DNA of 41,788 nt, from IMG/VR virus record IMGVR_UViG_3300013102_000018, positions 1 to 41,788 of that record. One strand, written 5' to 3'. Origin of the DNA: a virus. This document shows positions 4,882-14,263 of the stretch, piece after piece (the stretch's first letter is position 1; every line of letters starts with the position of its first letter). A model generated the notes under the pieces. That model did not search any database. It saw only the letters and a program-made list of their open reading frames with translations, and had not been told where the DNA came from. Made by a program: the position numbers and the translations under genes.

Positions 4882-5269
4882 ATTTACGAACGCTAAGAAC
4901 GTTAAAGAGATCGCCCGCTTAAACGCAGAAGTTCGCCGCCTTCAAACGATCCTGACTCTTTCGAATCGCCAGGGTGAAGAATTCTGGAAGGAAAGGTCTG
5001 AAACGCTGGCTGCTGAAAACGCCCATATGATGGCGGCTTTGCAGGAGCTGGGCGACGAGCGCGTGCATTCAATGCTTAACCTTATGATCATGTACAGTCA
5101 CAGCAAAGTGATGATCAACCAGTTGCAGGCTTATGGCTACCTGGCGGCGTCTAACGACATGAAAGAAGCCGCCCGCGAGATCGCAAACCCTGTCGTTTAC
5201 GATGCGTTTATGTCGCTGGCCGGCCAGATGGAAGATCGCGCCCGGGCACGCATTATTCGGTCTTCCTGA
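4868..5269 (+). CDS. Unidentified helical protein (133 aa)
   Basis: ATG at 4868 follows GGAGGG at optimal spacing. The protein starts MITNKFTNAK and is almost entirely helical, with heptad-like Leu/Ala spacing (residues about 12-60), suggesting a coiled coil, and a Met-rich central part. It has no Cys, no signal and no catalytic motif. It lies between the two DNA methylase genes and ends just before the Dcm start. Function not recognised. Confidence 0.75.
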   Translation: MITNKFTNAKNVKEIARLNAEVRRLQTILTLSNRQGEEFWKERSETLAAENAHMMAALQELGDERVHSMLNLMIMYSHSKVMINQLQAYGYLAASNDMKEAAREIANPVVYDAFMSLAGQMEDRARARIIRSS

Positions 5270-5270
5270 T

Positions 5271-6551
5271 ATGGCAGCCTATTACAACGAATTCAACAAG
5301 GACGCAGCCGCATGGCTGCGTGTACTCATTCAGGAAGGGCTGATAGCCCACGGATATGTCGATGAAAGATCAATCGAAGAAGTTACCCCCGGCGACCTGC
5401 GAGGCTTCACCCAGTGCCATTTCTTCGCAGGCATCGGCGGCTGGAGTCTTGCCCTGCGAATCGCAGGAGTGCGTGACGATTCGCCCTGCTGGACAGGATC
5501 ACCCCCCTGCCAGCCTTTCAGCGTCGCCGGAAAGCAAATCGGAATGGACGACCCCCGACACCTTGCCCCCATATGGCTGCGGCTTATTGAGCAGTGCCAG
5601 CCTGCAAAAATCTTTGGAGAGCAGGTTAAAGCGGCAATTAAACCCGGATGGCTTGATCTTCTATTCCTCGAAATGGAAAGAGCGGGCTACGCCTGCGGGG
5701 CGTCAGTATTGCCAGCTGGTGCTGTCGAAGCGCCCCACCTGCGCGACCGATTATTTTTCGGGGCAGTGCGAAACCTGGCCCACACCCGACACGCAGAATC
5801 ACCGATCGCCAGTGGCTGGAGCGACGGCGGGATGGTACCGGGAGGACGGTTCGAAGCAGCAGAAGAGGCTGCAGGATGTGGCGGGGCTGGCGAAATTGGA
5901 ATCTTGGGGGACTCCGACATTATCAGACGAAAACATGAGCAGGAGATCACAAGCAGCTATCGAAAAGGAATGGAACAGGCCGAACGCATCAAAATCAACG
6001 CTGGCTATTCAGGCTGCAAAACTGGCGAACTGGGCGACGCCGATTGCGAACGACGCGAAGGGCAGCGACTACAGCACCAGCAACGGGCAGAAGATCCTGA
6101 AATTGCCGGGTCAGGCAAAACTGGCGAGCTGGCCGACGAGCAGCGCGACGGATCACAAGGGTGGCTACGAGGGTGGCAGGATTCGCAACGGCAAACTTTC
6201 GGTGGACAGGCTGGACGTGGCAGCGCAGCTTGCGACCTGGCCCACGCCTTTAACGGTTCCAGAATCGGACGCCAGCAGGGGCCAACTATCTGGCAGCATG
6301 AGGCAACAGCTGGAGCCGTGCAAGCCGTCAACCCCTGGGCGAGTCTTAAACGCCAGTGGGATCGATGTGACTGGATCTTATGTCTCGATGGCAACTACCG
6401 GCCCATTGAACCCGGCACTTTCCCGCTGGCTAATGGGGTACCCGCCAGAGTGGGACGACTGCGCGGTTATGGCAATGCCATCAGCCCGCAAATCACAGCG
6501 GAGTTTATCGAAGCCTTTAACGGAGCCTGCCGCGACGCCCGCAAAACCTAA
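5271..6551 (+). CDS. dcm: C5-cytosine DNA methyltransferase (Dcm-like), dual-frame gene
   Basis: A 426-residue cytosine-5 methyltransferase. Motif I FAGIGG at about 52-57, motif IV PPCQ with catalytic Cys near residue 80, motif VI as GEQV (usual ENV) near 116-119, motif VIII LRDR near 157-160, and the motif X sequence GNAISP near the C-terminus. The part between VIII and X, normally the target-recognition region, is an unusual run of polar repeats (GELGDADCERREGQ, GELADEQRDGSQG and relatives) and is exactly where a second long gene lies in another frame. Start at 5271 follows the preceding stop by one base. It methylates cytosine in a sequence not predictable here. Confidence 0.9.
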   Translation: MAAYYNEFNKDAAAWLRVLIQEGLIAHGYVDERSIEEVTPGDLRGFTQCHFFAGIGGWSLALRIAGVRDDSPCWTGSPPCQPFSVAGKQIGMDDPRHLAPIWLRLIEQCQPAKIFGEQVKAAIKPGWLDLLFLEMERAGYACGASVLPAGAVEAPHLRDRLFFGAVRNLAHTRHAESPIASGWSDGGMVPGGRFEAAEEAAGCGGAGEIGILGDSDIIRRKHEQEITSSYRKGMEQAERIKINAGYSGCKTGELGDADCERREGQRLQHQQRAEDPEIAGSGKTGELADEQRDGSQGWLRGWQDSQRQTFGGQAGRGSAACDLAHAFNGSRIGRQQGPTIWQHEATAGAVQAVNPWASLKRQWDRCDWILCLDGNYRPIEPGTFPLANGVPARVGRLRGYGNAISPQITAEFIEAFNGACRDARKT

Positions 6552-6627
6552 AGTGCGCATCCGGGCGGGATCCTTTGAGCATGATGGCTGGCTGTCGCTG
6601 GCCGCTAAAGCGAGGAACGAAAAGTGA
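5356..6627 (+). CDS. Overlapping-frame protein within the Dcm gene (W-x-T-P repeat family)
   Basis: A 423-residue open frame, offset from the methylase gene and overlapping it for about 1.2 kb. Its features are not those of a random shadow: a region SLQKSLESRLKRQL...KWKERATPAGR near residues 82-116, five W-x-T-x/W-x-T-P motifs (WPTPDTQ, WGTPTLSD, WATPIANDAKG, WPTSSATDHKG, WPTPL), and a C-terminal LNPALSRWLMGYPPEW. I recall this combination from a phage protein family usually found with Dcm genes. Each W-T-P unit coincides with one LGD/LAD-type unit in the methylase frame. Translation may start at 5356 or 5362; both have weak ribosome sites. It continues 76 bases past the methylase stop. Function unknown, possibly a methylase partner. 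Confidence 0.7.
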   Translation: MSMKDQSKKLPPATCEASPSAISSQASAAGVLPCESQECVTIRPAGQDHPPASLSASPESKSEWTTPDTLPPYGCGLLSSASLQKSLESRLKRQLNPDGLIFYSSKWKERATPAGRQYCQLVLSKRPTCATDYFSGQCETWPTPDTQNHRSPVAGATAGWYREDGSKQQKRLQDVAGLAKLESWGTPTLSDENMSRRSQAAIEKEWNRPNASKSTLAIQAAKLANWATPIANDAKGSDYSTSNGQKILKLPGQAKLASWPTSSATDHKGGYEGGRIRNGKLSVDRLDVAAQLATWPTPLTVPESDASRGQLSGSMRQQLEPCKPSTPGRVLNASGIDVTGSYVSMATTGPLNPALSRWLMGYPPEWDDCAVMAMPSARKSQRSLSKPLTEPAATPAKPKVRIRAGSFEHDGWLSLAAKARNEK

Positions 6628-7503: not shown

Positions 7504-10287
7504 ATGGCTAAAAAATCATACAACCCGCTAACGGTTGACCAGATCCGACGCATGCTGACCTACATCGACGCCGATTGTTCGCGCGAAGAATGGGTGGACG
7601 TCGCTATGGGCGTTATGTCTGAGCTGGGCGACGCAGGCGAAGAAGTCTGGATGGAGTGGAGCCGCACCAGTACGGCAAAATTCAACCTTTCAGATGCACG
7701 CAGCACCTGGAAGTCTATCGGCGCTGGCGGAAAGACGATCGGCACCGTGTGGCACATGGCTGCCCAGAAAGGATGGGCGCTGGATAAGAGCGAGATCCAG
7801 CAGCTGCCAGAAGAGGAAATGGCCCAGCGTATTGCCAACCGCGAGGCAGCCGAAAAGGCAGCCAAAGAAGCGCGACAGGCTGATGCGGATAAGGCACGCG
7901 ACAGGGCAAATAATACGTGGAACGCGGCAGCACCGTGCGGCGATCACCCATACCTGCAGCGCAAAAAGGTTAAGTCCCACAACCTCAAAGTGGGCGACTT
8001 CGCGATGGAGAAACGCGACGGCACATACAGCACCCAGAAAAACATGCTGCTGATCCCGGTTATGTCGCTGGACGGCACGATCCACAACCTGCAAGCCATC
8101 TGGCCGAAAAAGCCAAAATGGGCAGAAGGTGGCAGCGATAAGCTGTTTATCAAAGGCGGCCTGGTGGGCGGTCACTTTTTCATAATCGGCAACCCCGGCG
8201 ACGGCGACGGCACCGTGGCTTTTTGTGAGGGTTACGCAACCGGCGCAGCAATCCGGGAGGCAACCGGCTGGTGCGTGGTGATCTGCTTCAACAGCAACAA
8301 CCTGATGCCGGTAGCGGAGCAATTCGCCAAAGAATTCGTGGGCGTGCCTTTCGTGGTCTGCGGCGATAACGATCGCTGGACGACGACGACGGTTAACGGC
8401 CAGAAGGTGAATAACCCGGGCGAACTGGCCGCTAAAAGCGTGGCTAACGTGATCCGTGGGCGTTGCATCGTTCCCCGCTTCACAAAGGAAACGCTACAGG
8501 CTAACACCGTGACAGACGACAAGGGCAGGACGCGCGGCCCTACCGACTTTAACGACCTTTTAGTGCTGGAAGGCGAAGAGCAGCTGGCGCGCCAGTTATC
8601 GGCGAAGGTGGTAGAAATGGCGAACATCAACCAAAAAAATAAATCCCCGGAGGAATCGACCAACCCGTGGGCAAACGATGAATTTACGGTGCTGGGGCAT
8701 AACCACGGCAATTATTTTTACCTTTGCCACGGTAGCCGCCAGGTGATCACCATGACGGCAGCGAAGCACACCAAAAACAATTTGATGGAGCTGGCAAGCC
8801 TCGAATGGTGGTACTCAATGTACCCGGTAAAGGGCGCGATCGACTGGGAGAAAGCCACCAACGACCTGATGCGCTTATGCCAGCAGCGCGGCATCTATTC
8901 GCTGGAAAAGATGCGCGGGCGTGGTGCGTGGTGGGACGACGATCGCGCGGTCTATCACTTTGGCAGCCATCTGCTGGTAGACGGCGAGGAAGTGGAAATT
9001 ACCGACTTTAACAGCCGGTACACATACCAGCAGGAACTGCCACTACCGACGCCAGCCGACGAGGCGCTAACCGACGACGAAGGGCAGGGGCTGCTGGATC
9101 TGGCAATGTCGTTTCGGTGGAGCGTGCCCGCGTCTGGCTGCTTACTGGCTGGATTCGTGGCGCTGGCACCTATCTGCGGTGCACTGCGCTGGCGGCCCCA
9201 CCTGTGGCTTACCGGTGGCGCTGGCTGCGGTAAATCGACGGTGCTTAACGAATACATTAACCCGCTGATGCACGGCATTAACATATTCGCGCAGGGCAAC
9301 AGTACAGAGGCAGGGATCCGCCAGCGACTGGGTGGTGATGCCCGTCCAGTGTTGTTCGATGAATCCGAGTCAAACAACGAACGCGAGGCGCAGCGCGTCC
9401 AGAACATCCTTTCGATGGTTCGCCAGGCATCCAGTGAGAGCCAGGCGGAGACGCTGAAAGGCAGCGCCAACGGCGACAGCATAACGTTTATGATCCGCAG
9501 CATGTTTTGCTTCGCATCCATTCAGGTGGGCATGAAGCAGCAGGCCGATATTGAGCGTTTAACGGTGCTGGCGATGCGCGGCAAAGAGGGTGAAGAAAAC
9601 GCGGCAGGCAACTGGGAGCAGCTGAGCGAGCGCCTTTACCAGCTGCGCCGGGATAAGGATCTACCGGCCCGCCTGTTTAAGCGCACGCTGGATTTGATGC
9701 CCACCACGCTGGCGAACATCAAAACCTTTTCCCGGGCTGCCGGTGATTATTTCGGTACCGCCCGCGAAGGCGACCAGTACGGCACGTTGCTGGCTGGCTG
9801 CTGGAGCCTGATCAGCACCGAGGCAGCGACCTACGAAGAGGCGCAGGAAATGATCGGGCGCTTCACGTGGGACGAAATCAAAGAGCGCAGCAGCGAGAGC
9901 GAAAGCAGCCAGGTGCTGGCCCGCATCATGGGTATCACCGACAAACTGGGCAACGGGCTTAACGTCCGGCTGCTGGAAGTGCTGCAGCAGGCCGCTGGCC
10001 GTGGGCAGGGTATCGGTCTGGATCAGAAAGAGGCGCAGCGCGTGTTACGCACTTACGGAATGGTCTACGAAGAAGGCCATCTGCTGATTGCCAACAACTG
10101 CCCGTACATCGAACGCCGCCTGCGTGATACGTCATTCGGCAGTGACTGGCGCGGGCAGCTGATGCGCGTTGCTGGCGTCGTGGCCTGGCCCAAACCGAAA
10201 AAGATTAACGGCACCCTGTCGCGCTGCGTCGGAATACCGTTTGATCTGGTGGCAGAAGACCCGAGCCAGCAGGAGCTGCTAAACTGA
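7504..10287 (+). CDS. Replicative primase-helicase (PriCT-2, Toprim-like and DUF927-type helicase domains)
   Basis: A 927-residue replication protein. Residues about 8-85 match the primase C-terminal-2 (PriCT_2) pattern, including REEWVDVAMG. Residues about 130-330 look like a Toprim-type primase domain (FCEGYATGAAIREATG then VVCGDNDRW). The C-terminal half is a helicase of the DUF927/superfamily 3 kind: Walker A GGAGCGKST near 571-579 and Walker B VLFDESES near 618-625. It would prime and unwind DNA at the phage origin, and a GGTTACA-rich origin candidate lies 300 bases downstream. Start at 7504 has AAGGGG at correct spacing. The gene is intact, and no separate loader or initiator gene is seen. 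Confidence 0.9.
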   Translation: MAKKSYNPLTVDQIRRMLTYIDADCSREEWVDVAMGVMSELGDAGEEVWMEWSRTSTAKFNLSDARSTWKSIGAGGKTIGTVWHMAAQKGWALDKSEIQQLPEEEMAQRIANREAAEKAAKEARQADADKARDRANNTWNAAAPCGDHPYLQRKKVKSHNLKVGDFAMEKRDGTYSTQKNMLLIPVMSLDGTIHNLQAIWPKKPKWAEGGSDKLFIKGGLVGGHFFIIGNPGDGDGTVAFCEGYATGAAIREATGWCVVICFNSNNLMPVAEQFAKEFVGVPFVVCGDNDRWTTTTVNGQKVNNPGELAAKSVANVIRGRCIVPRFTKETLQANTVTDDKGRTRGPTDFNDLLVLEGEEQLARQLSAKVVEMANINQKNKSPEESTNPWANDEFTVLGHNHGNYFYLCHGSRQVITMTAAKHTKNNLMELASLEWWYSMYPVKGAIDWEKATNDLMRLCQQRGIYSLEKMRGRGAWWDDDRAVYHFGSHLLVDGEEVEITDFNSRYTYQQELPLPTPADEALTDDEGQGLLDLAMSFRWSVPASGCLLAGFVALAPICGALRWRPHLWLTGGAGCGKSTVLNEYINPLMHGINIFAQGNSTEAGIRQRLGGDARPVLFDESESNNEREAQRVQNILSMVRQASSESQAETLKGSANGDSITFMIRSMFCFASIQVGMKQQADIERLTVLAMRGKEGEENAAGNWEQLSERLYQLRRDKDLPARLFKRTLDLMPTTLANIKTFSRAAGDYFGTAREGDQYGTLLAGCWSLISTEAATYEEAQEMIGRFTWDEIKERSSESESSQVLARIMGITDKLGNGLNVRLLEVLQQAAGRGQGIGLDQKEAQRVLRTYGMVYEEGHLLIANNCPYIERRLRDTSFGSDWRGQLMRVAGVVAWPKPKKINGTLSRCVGIPFDLVAEDPSQQELLN

Positions 10288-10321: not shown

Positions 10322-10342
10322 TAAAAAACCCGCCGAGGCGGG
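10322..10342 (-). terminator. Intrinsic terminator for the minus-strand gene
   Basis: CCCGC / CGAG / GCGGG stem-loop at 10329-10342 with a run of A residues at 10323-10328 on the plus strand, which reads as T residues after the stem on the minus strand. It follows the stop of the minus-strand gene at once. On the plus strand no T run follows, so it would be weak for the primase-helicase transcript. Confidence 0.8.
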
Positions 10343-10549
10343 CTATTCATGCCGTGTAACTCTCAGTATGTGATCCTTAGTCATTACCGTATAAACCCTT
10401 CCCGTCTTCTTTTTCTGCTTCGACGCCTGAACCCTGACGCTTTGCCAATTGATCCCAGCAAGGGGCGTTTCAAAATAATCCCCCACTTTCATTTCTTCCC
10501 ACGGGTAGTAAGTATGCCCGTTGTAACCCCTGAAAATCTTGTGTTGCAT
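10343..10549 (-). CDS. Only minus-strand gene: small phage protein with MKVGDYFE motif
   Basis: A 68-residue basic protein read leftward from ATG at 10549 to TAG at 10343-10345, with a G-run ribosome binding site 6-7 bases before the start and its own terminator. The pattern of a central MKVGDYFETP, then a basic Lys/Arg stretch (QASKQKKKTGRVYTV) and a C-terminal ILRVTR resembles a family of small phage proteins of unknown function (I recall it as DUF7303-like; not checked). It lies convergent with the primase gene and next to the origin candidate. A DNA-binding role is possible from its charge but unproven. Confidence 0.75.
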   Translation of the reverse strand: MQHKIFRGYNGHTYYPWEEMKVGDYFETPLAGINWQSVRVQASKQKKKTGRVYTVMTKDHILRVTRHE

Positions 10550-10559
10550 AGCTGACCCC

Positions 10560-10980
10560 CCCTGTAATTGAGTTACTAATATAACCGATGTTACCCACCC
10601 GGCGCGTCTAAAAGGTTACAAATCGGAGTTACATTCAGTCTTGTAACCTAAATTGTAACCCCTAAGTGCATGTTTCATAAAGAAAGGTTACAGGTTACAG
10701 AGGTTACACGGAAATATAGAGAGTTGTAATGCGTGCGTGAGCGCGAGCGCGCGTGTGCGTGGGGTTATGTTTCCATATATATATATAATCTTGTAACCTT
10801 TATATATATATACATATAAAACAGGTAGTTAAGGGTTACAAAATGGGGTTACAACGAGGTTACAAGGCCCATAAGTTTGTAACCTTTTCGCTTAAAGCAA
10901 TGATTAATAACGATATTTCCTTGTAACCTTTTCGATTTCATATGCATTTGTATAGATAAACCCCCGCAATCGTATAGAAT
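10560..10980. other. Candidate replication origin: GGTTACA iterons with AT-rich and alternating purine-pyrimidine tracts
   Basis: No gene is seen from 10550 to 11011. The perfect heptamer GGTTACA occurs twelve times between 10614 and 10928: plus strand at 10614, 10686, 10693, 10702, 10834, 10847 and 10858; minus strand (TGTAACC) at 10642, 10654, 10792, 10878 and 10922. One-mismatch copies lie at 10627 and nearby. Between the clusters are AT alternations at 10775-10788 and 10801-10818 and a G/C-rich alternating tract near 10733-10761. Iterons flanking an easily melted AT tract, beside the primase-helicase gene, are the usual layout of a phage or plasmid origin. Binding by a repressor or partition protein is the alternative. 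Confidence 0.7.
10948..10980 (+). promoter_or_regulatory. Possible promoter of the HTH activator gene
   Basis: TTGTAT at 10948-10953 and TATAGA at 10973-10978 (or TAGAAT at 10975-10980) lie about 19-21 bases apart, wider than optimal. The sequence holds two copies of GTATAG (10950 and 10972), the half of the early operator. If functional it would place the activator gene under weak or repressor-linked control. Spacing is poor, so the call is tentative. Confidence 0.35.
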
Positions 10981-11011: not shown

Positions 11012-11482
11012 ATGAACCTACCCAAAAGCGTGCAGCAGATTGCCGACGTGATAGGAGTATCGCAAACCTTAAAGCTGATTGGCCTGTTGCCGGTCTGTAA
11101 GGTTCGCGATAAACGCTATTCCAAAGCGATCAGTAACCGGATAGTCCTGATTGTTCCCGCCAACCTCAAAGCCGACGATAAGCTGGTTAAGCTGATTGGA
11201 TGGGACGACGCCTACAAACTATCCCGCCACTTTGGCGGTGAGTTTCTTTATCCGGCAACATGTGCCGATATTTACCGCGATTTCCTGAAAGACACAGCCA
11301 TGCGCATGTATCGCGACGGCATGAAGCCCACAGACGTCTCAGAGGCTATGCAGATACCCTACAGAACGATAAGCCGGTGGCTGTCAGATGCCATCCCCCA
11401 CCATGCGCAGGCATACAGTGCTGGTAATATGTTCGACGCAACCGGCAGTAACGTGGGGAAAGGCAACAATGTGGCTATTTGA
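11012..11482 (+). CDS. Helix-turn-helix protein, candidate late-gene activator (Mor/C-like pattern)
   Basis: A 156-residue protein with a clear C-terminal helix-turn-helix at about residues 103-125 (GMKPTDVSEAMQIPYRTISRW) preceded by a beta/loop segment GGEFLYPATCADIYRDF. This order, GG-x2-LY then an (I/L)YRDF helix and an HTH, recalls the Mor/C family of Mu middle and late activators, though overall similarity is unproven. It is the last gene before the lysis and structural genes, where a late activator would be expected. Its own 3' end holds a degenerate copy of the late-promoter element. Whether it binds that element is inference. Confidence 0.65.
   Translation: MNLPKSVQQIADVIGVSQTLKLIGLLPVCKVRDKRYSKAISNRIVLIVPANLKADDKLVKLIGWDDAYKLSRHFGGEFLYPATCADIYRDFLKDTAMRMYRDGMKPTDVSEAMQIPYRTISRWLSDAIPHHAQAYSAGNMFDATGSNVGKGNNVAI
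11388..11431 (+). promoter_or_regulatory. Late-promoter element, degenerate copy 1 (lysis cassette)
   Basis: From 11388 the sequence ATGCCATCCCCCACCATG matches the element family at 16 of 18 positions, but the last three bases of the -35-like hexamer differ (ATGCGC). TAATAT at 11425-11430 lies 16 bases downstream and AATATG 17 bases downstream. The site lies in the 3' end of the HTH gene, about 65 bases before the first lysis gene. The upstream part is conserved while the -35 is poor, as expected if an activator does the recruiting. Confidence 0.55.
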
Positions 11483-13726: not shown

Positions 13727-14263
13727 ATGGCAATACGTGGACAGACAGTCAACCGAACCGATCTGGCGCAGATTTTTGGCGTCTCTATGCCGACCGTCGA
13801 TCGCTGGATTCGTGCAGGCATGCCGGTGCTTTCAGCTGGACGCCGTGGAGTATCGGCGGAATTCAATACGGCGGAATGTTTTGAATGGCTGCGCAATTCG
13901 GCAGTGGACGAAGCCACGGGCAAGGTGATGGCAGACGACGCGACGATAGACCGCCGCATGAAGACCGCCAAAATGGTGCGCGCAGAACTGGACCTGGAAA
14001 AAGAAAAGGGCACGCTGGCCCCGATTGCCCAGATGGAAGCTGCGCTGGCGAATATCTTCGCTAACCTCCGCGCCAAAATGCGCGTTATCCCGAGCCGCGC
14101 TTACGGGGCGCTGGTGGGGGAAGACGACGAAGGGATCTGGAAAGAAACCCTGATGCGGGAGATCGACGGGGCGCTGACCGACACCGCCAATTCGAACCTG
14201 TTTACCGGCCCTATGGATGAACTGGAGGCGGAAGACGATGGCGACGACGAAGACGAAGAGTAA
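13727..14263 (+). CDS. Terminase small subunit (lambda Nu1-like)
   Basis: A 178-residue protein. Residues about 6-35 (NRTDLAQIFGVSMPTVDRWIRAGMP) form the winged HTH of the Nu1 family that recognises the cos region; the body is helical, and the C-terminal 15 residues are almost all Asp and Glu. ATG at 13727 has AGAAGGG at good spacing. It forms the packaging motor with the large subunit, whose gene overlaps its end by 26 bases. Lambda Nu1 is 181 residues, so the length fits. Confidence 0.9.
   Translation: MAIRGQTVNRTDLAQIFGVSMPTVDRWIRAGMPVLSAGRRGVSAEFNTAECFEWLRNSAVDEATGKVMADDATIDRRMKTAKMVRAELDLEKEKGTLAPIAQMEAALANIFANLRAKMRVIPSRAYGALVGEDDEGIWKETLMREIDGALTDTANSNLFTGPMDELEAEDDGDDEDEE

Follow-up and report, generated by a model that had tools for sequence, protein, structure and literature searches.

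A GGTTACA iteron array downstream of a Toprim primase-helicase gene: a probable phage replication origin and an apparent rule linking one helicase residue to the iteron sequence

To our knowledge, the replication origins of most sequenced phages are unknown. The question raised by the locus described here is whether a dense cluster of GGTTACA heptamers serves as such an origin, and which protein reads it. The cluster lies in the window, by which we mean the whole stretch of viral DNA analyzed (41,788 nucleotides; IMG/VR record IMGVR_UViG_3300013102_000018). The first and last 123 bases of the window are identical and it therefore represents a closed phage genome, the join of which is spanned by the SSB gene. 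Genes for a tyrosine integrase, a GpA-type terminase (at 14217), an AAA_24 ATPase and SSB identify the source as a temperate tailed phage. The main genes point in a single direction throughout, and the nearest helicase among named phages is that of Serratia phage MQ-4 (46% across the full protein). Elsewhere in this genome, two long ORFs on the + strand but in different frames (5202-6551 and 5356-6627) overlap by ~1.2 kb. One of the pair is a C5 DNA methylase (PF00145, phrog_363), and because the other, read in its own frame, has matches to two separate ‘DNA methyltransferase’ families (phrog_1008 and phrog_31772), both frames may encode real proteins.

The window contains 17 exact copies of GGTTACA where 2.97 would be expected, and 0 of 100 shuffles had as many. 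Thirteen of these copies fall within 10522-10928 and twelve within 10614-10928 (the main array), a 315 bp interval for which the whole-window rate predicts 0.022 copies (Poisson P ~3e-29 for 12). A k-mer cluster scan in which neither motif nor place was preset recovered the main array with a logE of -22. An initial annotation of this DNA had reported twelve exact heptamers in about 315 bases in both orientations, with a nearly back-to-back triple at 10686, 10693 and 10702, a chance expectation far below one, and a primase-helicase gene alongside. Our recount returned all twelve copies and the triple and agreed on the other points, but added a 13th exact copy at 10522 and three copies with one mismatch (at 10580, 10589 and 10627) that had been missed. 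The remaining four exact copies are scattered singly, and no second GGTTACA cluster was found in the closed genome. The main array lies between the primase-helicase gene and the gene at 11012, its first copy starting ~325 bp past the end of the former at 10287. The features of the locus are as follows, with iterons given by their start positions and orientation:

7504-10287, + strand: primase-helicase of 927 aa, the proposed initiator, with PriCT_2 (residues 14-86), Toprim_3 (239-358), a Cch/MCM-like AAA+ helicase and a C-terminal domain (~815-927)
9946-10284, + strand: the C-terminal domain, residues 815-927, the proposed iteron reader; K900 (codon 10201-10203) is the covarying position
10327-10344, - strand: GC-rich stem-loop, terminator-like, at the end of ORF 10343
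10522-10528, - strand: outlying 13th GGTTACA, inside the small minus-strand ORF 10343-10549; function uncertain
10614-10928, both orientations: main iteron array of 12 exact GGTTACA, six to the left of the AT tract, one within it and five to the right
10614-10708, both orientations: left iteron group (10614+, 10642-, 10654-, 10686+, 10693+, 10702+), the last three 7 and 9 bp apart
10775-10822, no strand: AT-rich candidate unwinding element, with (AT)n tracts on either side of the 10792- iteron
10834-10928, both orientations: right iteron group (10834+, 10847+, 10858+, 10878-, 10922-)
11012-11482, + strand: HTH protein, late transcriptional activator-like (phrog_836); the first gene past the array, and one that the proposed model does not need

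Within the right iteron group, the longer sequence TTGTAACCTTTTCG is present twice (10877-10890 and 10921-10934), and ATATATATATA tracts occur on both flanks of the 10792 copy, in agreement with the two long repeats and the AT alternations in mid-array that had been described earlier. The AT element holds the lowest-GC 50 bp of the neighborhood (14% GC), inside the array. Its (AT)n tracts are mutually complementary, so that a DNA hairpin of 13 pairs is possible, in which the loop would contain the 10792 iteron. A short-repeat cluster far above chance beside a helicase gene and an AT-rich region bracketed by iterons are both features of origins of the P4, SaPI and SCCmec kind, and both are found in the window. 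The GC skew peak that had been put forward as a check did not appear; the array is not a turning point of the skew, which is a weak test in this genome because the main genes all point one way. A promoter scan of the array region gave nothing exceeding shuffles.

Walker A and B motifs are conserved in the helicase encoded next to the array. An AlphaFold2 model of residues 386-927 (pLDDT 93.9, pTM 0.89) had the SCCmec Cch helicase 5dgk as its best PDB match (E 1.7e-9, TM 0.45), with a VIA Z of 15.9 across nearly the whole model at an identity of ~12%, followed by D5-type and MCM helicases. The predicted fold places the window helicase in the ring-type AAA+/SF3-like class. The C-terminal domain alone had no significant fold match in Foldseek (best E 0.73). 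With a second aligner, the joint-best, weak match of the isolated domain was the C-terminal part of SaPIbov1 Rep (8tch residues 461-556, Z 3.9), and the next weak match was the winged-helix pCW3 relaxosome protein, in a structure with oriT DNA bound. The order of structural elements and these weak matches to winged-helix proteins hint at a winged helix, which is only suggested because the isolated domain has no significant fold match. In the model, residue 900 lies in a short strand close to the end of this domain. The DUF927 profile gave a trace match in only 2 of 18 family members (best E 0.026), and the helicase family occurs in phage contigs as well as in contigs assigned to nine bacterial phyla.

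In the sister phage L002 (IMG/VR 3300031132), the C-half of the helicase is 99.8% identical to that of the window, and the array aligns with the window array with differences at 5 of 77 iteron positions versus 54 of 298 positions outside, most of the five being accounted for by a one-base shift at the 10686 pair. The interval between helicase and array in L002 is too short for ORF 10343-10549, and the array is nonetheless kept. The 10343 product is therefore not a likely binder; of the three candidates named in the initial annotation, the 7286 product is likewise not likely, whereas the 7504 product, through its C-terminal domain, is the likely one.

More distant relatives of the helicase half were drawn from IMG/VR, GTDB genomes and named phages, for which a profile search was needed, single-protein queries having returned few relatives. 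Each locus was scanned for clustered 6- to 8-mers with no motif or place assumed; as a positive control, the scan recovered the annotated crr and ori repeats of P4, GGTGAACA. In a non-redundant discovery set (112 loci, helicases <88% identical), significant short-repeat clusters were found at 62 loci, compared with none of 112 simulated controls of matched dinucleotide make-up. Forty-eight of the 62 clusters start between -100 and +400 bp from the helicase stop, where 4.0 were expected, and 2 more lie just upstream of the helicase gene. In Bdellovibrio phage phi1422, for example, GGTAACA is repeated 11 times from 13 bp past the helicase stop, locus L005 has eight copies of TGGTAAC, and a TGTAACA cluster is located just upstream of the helicase gene in Acinetobacter phage Acjo_20. 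In MQ-4, L023 and L041, which are close relatives, the array is 1.6-2.2 kb downstream and its motif is identical or similar. For MQ-4 and phi1422, replication is predicted to start at ~41.3-41.7 kb and ~14.0-14.3 kb of the respective record. Motifs across the family align to a core [CG]GT[AT]A[CG]A. This alignment carries 4.59 bits, compared with 1.27 (maximum 1.46) when motif columns are shuffled. Of 56 loci, 53 have their lowest-GC 50 bp, determined within 1.5 kb, in the array (5.9 expected), and in 52 of the 56 it is flanked by iterons on both sides. No significant cluster was found within the stretch examined in 50 of the 112 loci, many of which are ~90 kb phages.

One of these large phages, Bordetella phage PHB04 (94 kb), has no adjacent array; a genome-wide scan, applied to this one of them, detected an intergenic array of ten GGTATC copies 11 kb from the helicase gene (L410:15236-15504, record ~61.7-62.0 kb), which is probably the PHB04 origin. 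In phages ep3, Arya and Persinger, what is shared is limited to the N-terminal primase half, and such phages failed as a negative control. They have their own clusters 2-3 kb downstream of the primase gene (L021:9552-9808, L411:9394-9690 and L413:9373-9633, respectively), consisting of GGTGAC (8 and 12 copies) and TGACCA (10 copies), and thus do not prove that arrays follow the C-half alone. Clusters of other kinds were also encountered. In Pseudomonas phage PPpW-3, 17 copies of CGCAGCC (L412:8628-8870) form a strong cluster within an annotated coding sequence, perhaps a protein-level repeat, and in a viral contig 24 copies of CGGGGTC are located upstream of the helicase (L009:1189-1441) in a single orientation, unlike iteron arrays.

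The neighborhood of the window array admits a reading in which the repeats are operators for a phage transcription regulator (the 7286, 10343 or 11012 product) that controls late expression, as the late-activator-like HTH gene starts 84 bp beyond the last iteron and more HTH genes are nearby. This is highly improbable, however, given that the array stays beside the helicase in other phages although the neighboring genes differ, and that L002 conserves it with no room for ORF 10343 ahead of it. Twelve sites over 315 bp around an AT tract would also make an unusual operator, and the covariation described below implicates the C-terminal domain of the helicase in two separate data sets. Iterated short sites are a property of centromeres as well, but a partition (centromere-like) site or a packaging site is scarcely credible here: a Pfam search with ten window proteins turned up no ParA/ParB-type domain, and across phages the array tracks the replicative helicase, not the terminase.

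To relate the helicases to their iterons, the columns of the helicase alignment (~540) were ranked against iteron differences, with iteron orientation anchored on the GTWA part only. Residue 900 ranked first for iteron position 6 in the discovery set, and did so again in a separate ranking of a hold-out set that had played no part in finding the association. The hold-out set consisted of new loci with 42 helicases ≤88% identical to any discovery helicase, of which 32 had significant clusters. Helicases with K/R at this residue had C at position 6 in 19 of 19 hold-out cases and those with H/Y/W had G in 9 of 9 (28/28 fit; Fisher p 1.4e-7). In all data combined, K/R is found with C in 55 of 57 cases, the exceptions being L013 and L165, where motif orientation or register is uncertain. 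H/Y is found with a final GA in 11 of 11, and W with a final G in 9 of 9 (GG in 8, TG in 1). The resulting rule pairs K/R with ...ACA, H/Y with ...AGA and W with ...AGG, and K900 and GGTTACA in the window conform to it. Covariation signals at the other iteron positions were weak or dominated by lineage.

The hold-out loci were drawn from the same public collection and share lineages with the discovery set, and for this reason a test on a tree matters. The tree was built, by a quick method that left some long branches, only from the part of the helicase that precedes the C-terminal domain. This tree implies 11 switches of residue class and 12 of iteron base, and all 9 of 9 independent pairs were concordant (sign test p 0.004), so that shared ancestry is not the explanation of the link between residue and iteron. 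The distinction between W and H/Y matched the last iteron base in 5 of 5. This strong covariation suggests that the C-terminal domain of the helicase is most likely what recognizes the iteron. In principle, the reader could be another protein that diverges in step with the helicase, but it is in the helicase itself that the covarying residue sits.

The residue 900 covariation, the linkage of arrays to the helicase family and the AT core together make a self-loading initiator on iterons the most likely role of the helicase. With high confidence, we interpret 10614-10928 as an iteron replication origin read by the C-terminal domain of the 7504-10287 product; the arrays in relatives, the position of their AT maxima and the covariation all bear out the earlier proposal of a probable new phage origin. 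In the proposed mechanism, which extends to the window what is established for the helicases of P4, SaPI and SCCmec, the product would bind GGTTACA iterons through its C-terminal domain; it combines a Toprim primase with an AAA+ helicase whose fold belongs to a ring-forming class. Bound copies would then assemble rings on the iteron groups flanking the AT tract at 10775-10822, melt it and load onto the exposed strands, after which the N-terminal primase would prime DNA synthesis and replication would start.

Among known systems, P4 gp-alpha likewise combines primase and helicase in a single chain with a Toprim-type primase, and residues 150-290 of the window protein align to it (25%, E 3e-7). 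P4 also has short iterons in both orientations, and its iteron resembles GGTTACA but is 8 bp long; these repeats are bound by the winged-helix C-terminal domain of alpha (PMC4234260). However, outside the primase part no significant BLAST match was found between gp-alpha and the window protein, hhalign of gp-alpha against the helicase half plus C-terminal domain reached a probability of 14.5% confined to the P-loop region, and the window protein had no match to TIGR01613. By these sequence comparisons, homology to gp-alpha is not detectable in either the helicase half or the C-terminal domain. P4 further differs in having two separate clusters: crr immediately follows the alpha gene, and ori is >2 kb beyond the alpha gene start. 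That crr and not ori occupies the downstream position, with the same type 1 repeats as ori, raises the alternative that the window array is a replication-control or cis-required locus where the helicase binds while synthesis starts elsewhere in the genome, and the residue 900 covariation itself argues for binding rather than firing. We nevertheless consider a crr-like locus quite improbable, as the closed genome offers no second cluster, only the four scattered single copies, and the array includes the AT maximum, as a melting site should.

The reading of the array as an origin also has parallels in SCCmec, the source of the best fold match (Cch), and in SaPIs, whose origins are directly downstream of rep and contain iterons to which Rep binds with its C-terminal domain (PMC7581432). 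The Cch-type helicases of these elements differ in having no fused Toprim primase, and the elements are staphylococcal. In pRN1-type replicons and phage BIP-1, the origin is located downstream of a multidomain primase-helicase that has a winged helix at its C terminus, and BIP-1 also carries PriCT_2, like the window protein (PMC4234260). They differ from the window in that the primase is archaeo-eukaryotic and the origin is a stem-loop that lacks iterons. The principle of a self-loading initiator helicase with iterons downstream of its gene is thus already known from P4, SaPI and SCCmec, whereas the iteron is new. The recognition rule also appears to be new, as does the helicase-origin family, in which a Toprim primase and a Cch-like initiator helicase are joined and the iteron origin lies downstream. 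In the literature searched, mostly without subscription papers, no paper described the GGTTACA array or this family, and within the same scope the earlier remark that this iteron matches no known phage origin stands.

In our estimation, the family probably represents a large undescribed class of phage origins in which a single C-terminal-domain residue of the initiator helicase sets the last two iteron letters (K/R: CA; H/Y: GA; W: GG). If this rule is true, the origin of a sequenced phage becomes predictable from its helicase, and vice versa. A helicase family with a recognizable origin and an apparent protein-DNA recognition rule would permit origin predictions for many genomes and give a handle on the compatibility of co-infecting phages. 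The family is also a compact natural data set in which the specificity of a DNA-binding domain changes in step with its sites.

Two further sequence elements were noted around the window array. Between the left iteron group and the AT tract, positions 10728-10760 form a mostly alternating purine-pyrimidine GC/GT run, the L002 counterpart of which is more regular (GTGTGTGTGCGCGTGTGTGCGCGTGTGCGTG); alternating purine-pyrimidine sequence of this kind is able to form Z-DNA. At 10950-10980, directly upstream of the late-activator gene, a direct repeat (TGTATAGA / CGTATAGA, ~24 bp apart) is a candidate operator, and both of its copies read AATCGTATAGA in L002.
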